A stretch of DNA of 64,000 nucleotides from Halosegnis longus (GTDB lineage: Archaea > Halobacteriota > Halobacteria > Halobacteriales > Haloarculaceae): the NCBI RefSeq assembly GCF_009663395.1, contig NZ_QKNW01000001.1, positions 62,001 to 126,000 of the forward strand, given 5' to 3'. How positions within the stretch are numbered: position 1 is the first letter of the stretch; each line of letters begins with the position of its first letter. The notes under the pieces were generated by a model that was not told the origin of the DNA, searched no databases, and saw only the letters and a list, made by a program, of their open reading frames with translations. Positions 32,105 through 35,484 of the stretch are shown here, one piece after another. The position numbers and the translations under genes were made by a program.

Positions 32105-32671
32105 ATGGACTGTCCCCGGTGTGGTGGCGACGTAACCGTCTTCGAGCTCGACGAGGCGGTTTCGCAGGTGTGCGAGGAGTGCTCGCACGTGGGGGTGCTG
32201 GCCGACCACCGGCGAGAGGACGCTCCAATCGAGTCGTGGGATGACGCGTTAACCCGGTTCCAGGCGGTGTTCCCGGAGGCTATCCCGGACGGTATCGCCC
32301 GCGTCGACGATGACACCGCACCGCCGGACGCACCGACGGACGACGATTCGTCTGCCGGCGGCGAGTTCCAGTTCCGCGGCACTCTCGAGTCGACGACGGT
32401 TACTGAATCGGAGCCGGGTATCGACGTTTCGGCCGGCGACTCGCGGCGGGACACACTCCAACGCGGCGACGCAACCGTCGTCGCAGTCTCTGACCCTGAC
32501 GCGAGCGATGCGGACGGGGACCCTGCGGCCAACGCCGGCGACGGTGCCGGTGACACAGACTCCGCGGCCGCTGCTACCGAAGAAGCCTCGAACGGCTCTG
32601 CCGGGTCGGCTGCGGGTGATACGGAGAGCGGCGACGGGGACGCGGCAACCGACCCGGACGAGACGGCGTGA
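32105..32671 (+). CDS. Zinc-ribbon protein with long acidic disordered tail
   Basis: 188 aa. The zinc ribbon (MDCPRCGGDVTVFE ... VCEECSHVGVL) is followed by a short helical segment (SWDDALTRFQAVFPEAI). About 110 residues of Asp/Ala/Thr/Gly-rich low-complexity sequence then run to the end. It is first in the same-strand run that ends with the salactin-like gene. Function unknown: zinc ribbons of this type bind nucleic acid or proteins, and the tail is probably disordered. The start is set by the zinc ribbon at the N-terminus. Confidence 0.65.
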   Translation: MDCPRCGGDVTVFELDEAVSQVCEECSHVGVLADHRREDAPIESWDDALTRFQAVFPEAIPDGIARVDDDTAPPDAPTDDDSSAGGEFQFRGTLESTTVTESEPGIDVSAGDSRRDTLQRGDATVVAVSDPDASDADGDPAANAGDGAGDTDSAAAATEEASNGSAGSAAGDTESGDGDAATDPDETA

Positions 32672-32722
32672 CAACCCCGTGTGAGTGCCGACTGTTTTGT
32701 ACCGTCCCGAGAAGAGGGAGAT

Positions 32723-33175
32723 ATGCCGACCGTTGAAATCACGGACGACCAACAGGAGCGGTTCGCTGCGATTCGAGACCAACTGACGGCGGCACACGCC
32801 GGCGAGTACACCTCGGTCCAACCGACCGACGTGATGGCGTACCTGCTCGACGTGGCCGAAGCGGCCGACGACCCGACGGCTGCGACGGGAGACGCGCCGA
32901 GTGCGGCTGCCGACACGGCGGCGACAGCCGACGATGCGGCGACGGACGAGACGGAGCCGTCCGACGGCGGGTCGGAGAGCGACCAGGAATCCAGTGGTCC
33001 GGCCGGCGGTGTCGGAGCGGGCCCCGGGATGTTGAATCTGCTCGAAGACCACGAGGAGAAGTGGCACGAGGCCGAGGGCGATGCACGCTACGAGGTCGAG
33101 TTGCCCGACGATACCACCGAGACGGCCCGGACGCGTGACGACGTGAAGGCGATTCTGTTCAAACACTACCGATGA
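32723..33175 (+). CDS. Unknown acidic protein of the salactin gene run
   Basis: 150 aa from the ATG at 32723, preceded by the purine-rich GAGGGAG, one of few likely Shine-Dalgarno sites here. The N-terminal ~55 residues (MPTVEITDDQQERFAAIRDQ ... DVMAYLLDVAEA) look like a small helical or RHH-like fold. Residues 55-105 are a low-complexity Ala/Asp/Ser linker. A C-terminal segment has LNLLEDHEEKWHEAEGD and RTRDDVKAILFKHYR. Its stop overlaps the next start (ATGA). I do not recognise a family. Confidence 0.6.
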   Translation: MPTVEITDDQQERFAAIRDQLTAAHAGEYTSVQPTDVMAYLLDVAEAADDPTAATGDAPSAAADTAATADDAATDETEPSDGGSESDQESSGPAGGVGAGPGMLNLLEDHEEKWHEAEGDARYEVELPDDTTETARTRDDVKAILFKHYR

Positions 33176-33387
33176 CGCTACTCGACCGCGTGCGACGGTG
33201 GCTGTTCGGTGGAGACGACGCCGAGTCGTCGGAGACCGAGTCGGAGTCGGCGTCGGCAAACGCCGGCGAGCAGCGGCTCGACCCCGATAACGTCACGCAG
33301 ACCCGAACCACGAGCGACGACGACGCCGTCTCGCAGTTGCAGGATGTCAAACGTGAGGAGACGGACGAGGAGCGTTCCGACGGCTGA
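33172..33387 (+). CDS. 71-aa protein with N-terminal amphipathic helix
   Basis: Starts by ATGA overlap with the preceding gene. MTLLDRVRRWLFGGDD is a short helix with basic and hydrophobic faces, the rest is acidic and disordered-looking. Such N-termini can tether proteins to membranes. The C-terminus of the next gene product (VVARLRSWLSN) has a similar amphipathic pattern. Role unknown; probably linked to its neighbours by coupled translation. Confidence 0.55.
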   Translation: MTLLDRVRRWLFGGDDAESSETESESASANAGEQRLDPDNVTQTRTTSDDDAVSQLQDVKREETDEERSDG

Positions 33388-33435
33388 GGGGTTCGAGCCA
33401 AACTATCATATTCACCGGGTGAGTACCGTCGCTCG

Positions 33436-34347
33436 ATGACCGAGGACGACACCACCGACACGCCCCCGGAGAATGCGCTGCTCGGGCTCTACGAGCGATA
33501 CATCGGTGAGCCGGAAACAGAGTCAGAGGTGTATCTCGGCTTCGGTCTCTTCTTCGCGGGCGTCGCGTGTGCCGCGATCGGACTCGTGTTGTTCGTCGCC
33601 GGAGCCAGCCTCTACGGTCTCCGGACCGCCGGCTACTTCGCGCTGGCACAGCCGGGGTATCTCCTCGGAATGCTCTCGGTCCCCCTCGCGCTGCTTTCGG
33701 TCGTGGTGCTGTTGCCAACCGAACGCCGGGCACAGGTCGCCGGACTCGTCGGCATCGCCATCACCGTCGTCGCGAGCATCGCCTTCCTGCTCTCGTACCC
33801 CGAACGGTGGTTCGAGTTCGGGACACAGAACACGCTTCTGGTGGTCGGGACCTACGCAGTCGGCCTCGCGCTCTTGGCCGCCGTCACCGGAAGCGCGCTC
33901 GTCGCCCACCAGCTGGAGCGGGCACAGACGACCGCGACCGTCCCTGACGAGACCGCGACCGAAGAGCCGGAAGAACACATCAGCGACGAGGAGGTGCAGG
34001 CCGACATCGACGCGGCCATGTCCGACGTCGAACTCTCCTGGGGCGGTGTCGAGAAAGATAACAACCGGGACCTCTCGTTTCGCGAAGACTACGCCGACGA
34101 CGCGGGCGGGAGCCTGAACGCCGAGGCCGAAACGACGGTCAACCCCGGGGGCGTCGACGCGCAGGTCGAGGGGCTTCGACAGCTCAAGGGCGGCGACCGT
34201 GACGTACAGACATCGGAGTCGACGGTCGACGACCAGACCGCGGCGCTGAACGAGCTCAGAGAGCAGAAGCGCGACGACGAGGTCGACCCCGTGGCCGACG
34301 ACTCCGAAGGTGTCGTCGCGCGGCTGCGCTCGTGGCTGTCGAACTGA
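33436..34347 (+). CDS. Four-helix membrane protein with long cytoplasmic tail (DUF7139-like)
   Basis: 303 aa. Four transmembrane segments span residues ~30-160 (VYLGFGLFFAGVACAAIGLV; LLGMLSVPLALLSVVVLLP; VAGLVGIAITVVASIAFLLS; LLVVGTYAVGLALLAAVTG). A ~140-residue acidic cytoplasmic tail ends in an amphipathic VVARLRSWLSN. It resembles haloarchaeal 'permease' proteins of the DUF7139 type. It lies directly upstream of the salactin-like gene; such a tail could anchor or regulate a cytoskeletal filament, which is inference. Confidence 0.65.
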   Translation: MTEDDTTDTPPENALLGLYERYIGEPETESEVYLGFGLFFAGVACAAIGLVLFVAGASLYGLRTAGYFALAQPGYLLGMLSVPLALLSVVVLLPTERRAQVAGLVGIAITVVASIAFLLSYPERWFEFGTQNTLLVVGTYAVGLALLAAVTGSALVAHQLERAQTTATVPDETATEEPEEHISDEEVQADIDAAMSDVELSWGGVEKDNNRDLSFREDYADDAGGSLNAEAETTVNPGGVDAQVEGLRQLKGGDRDVQTSESTVDDQTAALNELREQKRDDEVDPVADDSEGVVARLRSWLSN

Positions 34348-34431
34348 GTCGTCGCGCTACAGTGAGCTGTATTGACGTACAGACCGCGGGAGAGATGGCA
34401 GCAATTACGCTGAACGAAAACGGCGAATAGA

Positions 34432-34439
34432 TTTATGAG
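34432..34439 (+). promoter_or_regulatory. TATA-like box for the salactin-like gene
   Basis: TTTATGAG is centred 27 bp upstream of the ATG at 34462, so the actin gene has its own leaderless promoter in the 114-bp gap. Confidence 0.5.
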
Positions 34440-34461
34440 ATAGGGCCGCCGGGGTATCTGT

Positions 34462-35484
34462 ATGGCAATTGGTCTCGACGTGGGCACGATGAATATCCTG
34501 TCGGCGAGTCAAGAGGGAACCGACACGGTGTTCGTCCAGCAGCGAAACTCATTCGTGGAAATCGAGTACTCCGACATGGCCGAGCAGATGCTCTCCCGGA
34601 GTGACGTGCTCCACATCCGCAAGGACGACAAGGTGTACGTCGTCGGTGACGACGCGTTGAACTTCGCGAACATCTTCAACAAGGAGACGCGCCGTCCGAT
34701 GCAACACGGCATCCTCTCCAGCGACGAGCAGTCGGCCATCCCGATGATGAAGCTCATCATCGAGCAGGTGGTCGGCGAGCCGGACCGCCCCGGCGAGCGG
34801 CTGTACTTCTCCTCGCCCGCGGACCCCATCGACAGCGACCTCTCGACGCTGTACCACCAGAAGACCATCGAGTCGTTCCTGAACGACATGGGGTACGACG
34901 CCGAGCCGATCAACGAGGGGATGGCCGTCATCTACTCCGAGCTGGCAGACCACTCGTTCACCGGGCTGGGCATCTCCTTCGGTGCCGGGATGACGAACGT
35001 CTGTCTCTCCTACTACGCGGTGCCGGTGATGAAGTTCTCCGTCGCCCGCGGTGGCGACTGGGTCGACGAACAGGCCGCTCAGGCGACCGGCACGCCGGTC
35101 GATAAGGTCACCTCAATCAAGGAGGAGGACTTCGCGCTGGACTTCCAGACCGACGTCGGCGGCGTCGAGGGCGCGCTGTCCATCTACTACGAGAACCTGC
35201 TCGAGTACGTCATCGAGAACATCGTCGCGGAGGTCGACGAGGAGGACATCGAGGAGGGTCTCGACGTCCCGGTCGTCGTCACCGGTGGGACCGCCAGCCC
35301 GGACGGGTTCAAAGAGCTGTTCCAGGACCACCTCGAAGGCTCCAACATCCCGTTCAGCATCAGCGAGGTGATGCACGTGGACGAACCGCTCTACAGCGTT
35401 GCTCGTGGCGGGCTCGTGGCCGCTCGCTCGGACGAACAGGACGACAGCGCCGGCCAACAGCAAGCCGAGGCCGGCGAGGACTGA
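34462..35484 (+). CDS. Salactin-like actin-family ATPase
   Basis: 340 aa actin-fold protein. Phosphate-1 is [16 protein letters not shown], the connect-1/phosphate-2 region is [20 protein letters not shown], and the adenosine motif is [20 protein letters not shown] helix ([20 protein letters not shown]) precedes the last. The size and lack of a DnaK substrate domain place it with ParM/MreB-like actins. The closest type known to me is salactin, the dynamically unstable haloarchaeal actin described in Halobacterium salinarum. It would polymerise in the cytoplasm and may support DNA or cell partitioning. The acidic, Gln-rich tail is disordered. Assignment as salactin is by motif and lineage memory, not alignment. 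Confidence 0.78.

Follow-up and report, generated by a model that had tools for sequence, protein, structure and literature searches.

A conserved volactin locus in Halosegnis longus with a DUF7139 membrane protein as candidate receptor for filament tips

In this work, we analysed 64,000 nucleotides (nt) of Halosegnis longus DNA (contig NZ_QKNW01000001.1, positions 62,001 to 126,000 of the forward strand; hereafter the window), in which five open reading frames, A to E, run together on the + strand at window positions 32105–35484 and end in an actin gene. From family models, phylogeny, genome comparisons and predicted structures we consider it probable that this locus is a module of the cytoskeleton formed by the archaeal actin volactin (E) and that the four-helix membrane protein D, encoded directly upstream, most likely serves as receptor in the membrane for the tips of volactin filaments. 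Since D adjoins volactin and tracks it across the phylum, it is the best candidate for the part that holds the filaments to the membrane. Volactin of Haloferax volcanii governs disk shape and forms filaments whose tips contact the membrane, with no known receptor (PMC10869688); in Haloferax it drives the change from rods to disks and influences tissue formation under compression (PMC10869688, PMC7617734). With one conserved membrane protein and three smaller ones as candidates for the missing tip-binding factor, the question of how an archaeal actin is held and controlled at the membrane is reduced to a few genes, and, if the proposal is true, these would be volactin's first set of partners.

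The actin gene E (34462–35484, +, 340 amino acids (aa)) matches the Pfam family Volactin (PF25216) with 451.4 bits against a cut-off of 35, covering positions 1–321 of 321, and the phosphate 1, phosphate 2, adenosine and connect motifs of its nucleotide pocket are all conserved. It stays below the cut-offs of Pfam Salactin (PF25229, 12.5 against 27.1 bits) and of the NCBIfam salactin model NF053533 (17.2 against 400 bits). Its best NCBIfam match is MamK, which together with MamJ constitutes the magnetosome filament system, yet at 43.7 bits E falls far under the cut-off of 400, and no magnetosome genes were seen near the locus. A tree built from 56 sequences places E inside the volactins, next to Halorientalis regularis, and the salactins apart as a group with support of 100/100. 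Among named relatives the closest shares 94% identity with E, and a sequence search of solved structures returned no significant match. The genome to which the window belongs holds a single volactin, and a search for salactin in it found none. Judged by its sequence, E is a full-length volactin, a member of a family separate from salactin, and shares full length and intact pocket motifs with VolA (HVO_2015) of H. volcanii. The earlier note had described the actin as salactin-like and had named a position outside the salactin clade as what would speak against its proposal; the actin does lie outside that clade, and the family models, the tree and the genome search are all contrary to a salactin identity, which we reject. 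Salactin biology, namely polar filaments and DNA partitioning at low phosphate, is therefore not to be transferred to this locus.

Salactin of Halobacterium salinarum does share with volactin the actin fold, haloarchaeal origin and dynamic filaments, and dynamic instability is common to both (PMC10746226, PMC10869688), which is what the reading of the locus as a salactin-type module, partitioning DNA when phosphate is low, would have in its favour. Salactin differs, however, in family, in its neighbours and in serving DNA partitioning instead of shape; the families of A to D were absent from the 18 salactin neighbourhoods in which they were sought, and poor synteny around salactin has been reported (PMC10746226). 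Contradicted in addition by the family scores, the tree and the lack of salactin in the genome, this explanation is hardly credible, and a further linkage of the A–D module to salactin is rejected on the same 18 loci.

The association of D with volactin was surveyed in 145 genomes of the class Halobacteria, of which 86 encode a full-length volactin. DUF7139, the Pfam family to which D belongs, occurs in some form in 143 of the 145, so that DUF7139 in general is rejected as a volactin partner and only the subtype with a special tail, described below, tracks volactin: the profile of this tail has matches in exactly those 86 genomes that encode full-length volactin. The other three genes follow the same pattern less completely, with A present in 84 of the 86 volactin genomes and, at E<1e-17, in no other genome, B in 74 and in no other, and C in 17 and, at E<1e-10, in no other. 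For D with volactin, Fisher's test gives p = 3.6e-40, a statistic that ignores kinship; a better argument than such p values is the contrast within eight genera (g3, g4, g5, g6, g7, g13, g15 and g27) that mix species with and without volactin, where the type of D follows volactin each time. Salactin, found in 70 genomes and together with volactin in 36, is not tied to it (p = 0.06). One more genome, G060, which has no D, contains a volactin fragment comprising the last quarter of the domain (G060:C1:1837300-1837539), perhaps a decaying remnant.

Gene order was examined at 140 halobacterial loci from many genera, comprising 60 sampled genomes and 80 named loci. A D-family DUF7139 gene stands directly upstream of volactin on the same strand at 122 of them (49/60 sampled genomes and 73/80 named loci), and the zinc-ribbon gene A lies within 4 kb of volactin at 47/60 and 71/80, usually downstream and convergent; B and C are near volactin in fewer loci than A. 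In the sampled genomes with a non-adjacent D, mostly of genus g13, D resides elsewhere in the genome. The arrangements vary between A-B-C-D-E as in the window, D-E with a convergent A, C-B-A divergent from D-E, and E-A-B-C-D, and this re-association in different orders argues against a simply inherited order. In Haloferax, D is likewise directly upstream of volactin, with A convergent downstream, whereas in the window all five genes share one strand. The H. volcanii paper (PMC10869688) remarks on the stretch hvo_2013 to hvo_2020 for its shape-related proteins. The papers that we found in the open-licence literature describe no partner protein of VolA, and we found none there on DUF7139, HVO_2014 or HVO_2016, although work on DUF7139 may exist elsewhere. 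Conservation of the gene order, which the earlier note had made its premise, is thus borne out, the neighbourhood recurring in dozens of genera far beyond the source genome. Two loci showed unusual copies: in G129 a second, stop-interrupted copy of the D tail lies near volactin (G129:C1:1801096-1801434) with an intact D elsewhere in the genome, and in G106 the D–volactin locus is present in three copies on contigs 3, 4 and 5, one volactin being split over two frames.

The pairing extends beyond the class. In a sample of 247 genomes of the phylum, 204 of them outside Halobacteria, volactin was found in 26 of these 204, and 20 of the loci were fetched. All 20 have a same-strand gene directly upstream of volactin, overlapping it slightly or separated from it by up to 168 nt, which encodes a protein of 223–311 aa with three or four hydrophobic segments. 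Eight of these proteins were scored against DUF7139 and all exceeded its cut-off, and a search with the D profile from Halobacteria recovers 18 of the 20. By coordinates the adjacency is the same in the other six genomes, placing DUF7139 directly upstream in 26/26, while among the 178 volactin-less genomes outside the class one (G293) passes the cut-off; this match (G293:C2:799062-799385) sits inside a 601-aa open frame. Alignment of D with its non-halobacterial relatives by hhalign (E 2.7e-21) covers the membrane domain and the tail, including the second of the two tail motifs. No other surrounding gene is common to all 20 fetched loci, and A, B and C were not found in them. These comparisons support D as the phylum-wide companion of volactin and A to C as halobacterial companions. 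Since families of the phylum outside Halobacteria have this gene order too, the volactin–DUF7139 pair appears to be old.

Gene D (33436–34347, +, 303 aa) matches Pfam DUF7139 (PF23600), a family of unknown function, with 144.5 bits against a cut-off of 30. AlphaFold2 predicts four helices with high confidence at residues 29–59, 65–92, 97–120 and 129–167 (predicted local distance difference test, pLDDT, mostly 80–97), which would be the membrane-spanning part (residues 29–167, 33520–33936, +), followed by a long and mostly disordered tail with short helices, in agreement with the four-helix membrane protein with a long tail that had been noticed earlier. A search with D against solved folds yielded nothing significant, its hits all being generic four-helix membrane bundles. 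By the positive-inside rule, a conserved LLPxxRR loop and the basic residues that follow the fourth helix would place the tail on the cytoplasmic side.

The tail carries two short motifs, GGVDAQVEGLRQLKG at 34150–34194 (consensus VDxQVxGLxxLKGG, predicted short helix 242–251) and VDDQTAALNELREQK at 34225–34269 (consensus VDDQTxxLxELR, predicted helix 265–281), both on the + strand and conserved. Distant relatives outside Halobacteria have a motif related to the first, and the second aligns with their EVDxxSxxL. D ends with VVARLRSWLSN, within a predicted amphipathic helix (residues 291–302, 34306–34344, +). In 57 of 114 relatives, the amphipathicity of the last 20 residues exceeds that of 95% of shuffles. 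Within Halobacteria DUF7139 falls into two types. The volactin type, a subfamily that we propose here and that D fits by its two-motif tail and its co-occurrence with volactin, has a tail with SWGGVEK and the two VD motifs that closes in a helix, and it lacks a zinc ribbon at the C-terminus, whereas the paralogues of volactin-less genomes have a different tail of the zinc-ribbon type. This second type (L200 and other paralogues) carries a conserved C-terminal zinc ribbon, YCGxCxHFxYVRT...MDDMxACxxW, and occurs in nearly all Halobacteria examined.

Gene C (33172–33387, +, 71 aa) begins with a predicted amphipathic helix, MTLLDRVRRWLFGG (33172–33213, +), of the pattern MxLLDRLRxWLxG, and continues with an LDPxNVTEVR...DDxVxxL motif that resembles the D tail. 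In the ten C relatives the helix has hydrophobic moments of 0.63–0.75, which exceed 95% of shuffles in six. The amphipathic helices that the earlier note had pointed out in the 71-aa protein and at the D terminus are both present. Profiles of C and of the D tail match in hhalign with 69% probability (P 4.4e-5), the C profile finds a D tail and the D profile finds a C. C has the look of a D tail that was detached and placed on an amphipathic helix of its own.

We propose a model in which volactin polymerises in the cytoplasm and D, held in the membrane by its four helices, extends an acidic tail into the cytoplasm, whose two helical motifs would bind volactin at the filament end and so tether or nucleate the filament at the membrane, with the amphipathic helix at the end of the tail as a further element. 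C would be a peripheral version of this tether, with an amphipathic helix at its N-terminus and a tail-like motif behind it, and A and B would act as soluble adaptors or regulators gained within Halobacteria. The more specific claim that volactin-type DUF7139 is a dedicated receptor, perhaps nucleator, throughout the phylum, its repeated tail motifs binding filament ends and one of them copied into C, we put slightly below even chances. Alternatively, D could be an effector or sensor coupled to volactin, for instance in membrane remodelling or mechanosensing, and no anchor or nucleator at all. Co-occurrence and adjacency also fit this, and the roles of volactin in shape change and compression-induced tissue formation (PMC10869688, PMC7617734) would suit it; the most conserved features of the D type are, however, tail motifs suited to protein binding, and adjacency is retained where every other neighbour differs, which leaves an effector or sensor unlikely, if worth keeping in mind.

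The receptor model has parallels in known systems. Bacterial MreB is encoded beside the membrane proteins MreC and MreD, and FtsA and MinD carry amphipathic membrane-targeting helices; the likeness lies in an actin or ATPase beside membrane proteins and in an amphipathic helix as membrane anchor, but D is unrelated in family to MreC and MreD, and the helix is here on the partner and not on the actin. In ParM-ParR-parC, a dynamically unstable actin works with a small co-encoded adaptor in plasmid segregation. A corresponding role of the present locus in DNA segregation, with B as a DNA-binding adaptor of ribbon-helix-helix or SAP-like type joining volactin to DNA, might be read from the strand-helix-helix-like N-terminus of B and from a nucleic-acid-binding Rho_N domain in some of its relatives. 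The constant partner is here a membrane protein, though, and the locus shows no centromere-like repeat array, only scattered imperfect repeats of 14–29 nt in 2–3 copies. The AlphaFold2 model of B is of low confidence (pLDDT 62) and a fold search with it gave no match, leaving a ribbon-helix-helix fold of B tentative; B is missing from 12 of the 86 genomes with full-length volactin and from the loci outside the class, and volactin acts, as far as tested, in shape and not in DNA partitioning (PMC10869688). We regard this possibility as very improbable.

Several observations weigh against D as receptor. What is seen in the genomes is the pairing of D with volactin, and from it we infer binding; co-occurrence could reflect a shared pathway without contact. 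In genus g13, D is far from volactin, with the A-B-C cluster divergent from D at that site. The amphipathicity of the D C-terminus varies, and its basic end is missing in some distant relatives; the profile match between C and the D tail, at 69% probability, is modest. Volactin moreover has a promoter-like element of its own, and co-expression of D and volactin is not assured: the TATA-like AATAGATTTATGAG lies at 34424–34438 (+), in a conserved upstream block, and a CATAGATTTATAAT-like block is strongly kept at about -38 to -24 before volactin in 127 upstream regions, a position that would fit a leaderless transcript. The A–E run need therefore not be a single transcript. Taken together with the often differing orientation of A and B and with the gathering of A to D away from volactin in g13, this element would suit a shared cell-shape programme in which the genes are co-inherited without physical contact and the cluster is regulatory or historical. 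Such a programme is in our estimate improbable, since D stands beside volactin in 26/26 genomes outside the class in otherwise different surroundings, and D and volactin are jointly present or absent within the eight genera. The proposal of D as receptor keeps part of the earlier idea of anchors, nucleators or cargo adaptors: the conserved actin module with membrane and amphipathic-helix proteins as candidate anchors stands, and salactin as its actin does not. The anatomy of the locus had been described correctly, down to five same-strand genes with B and C joined by ATGA, and the name of the actin was wrong.

Of the remaining genes, A (32105–32671, +, 188 aa) encodes a zinc-ribbon protein with an acidic tail, in which CxxC...CxxC is followed by ESWDDALxRF; its relatives elsewhere are frequently only 55–65 aa long. 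B (32723–33175, +, 150 aa) is an acidic protein of two domains, an N-terminal one beginning MPxIxITxxQ... and a C-terminal one with LLxxHxDKW...ARTKDDVKxxLFxxY, joined by a disordered acidic linker. A and B are separated by 51 nt, C and D by 48 nt and D and E by 114 nt, while B and C overlap by 4 nt, the start of C sharing ATGA with the stop of B. As an inserted domain, Rho_N scores above its Pfam cut-off in relatives of B at L180 5936-6619, L181 6030-6791 and L050 9000-9878.

A second protein with a volactin domain, about 770–1340 aa long, is encoded in 25 of the 145 halobacterial genomes (L092–L101; for example L092 4812-8363 and L095 2684-5857), all of which also carry an ordinary volactin. 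The head of this giant protein resembles volactin but has degenerate phosphate and adenosine motifs; behind it come a long coiled coil similar to that of SMC/Rad50 and, at the C-terminus, hydrophobic segments. In about eleven genomes (for example G118, G143 and G107), B lies roughly 12–21 kb from the giant gene and far from the ordinary volactin.

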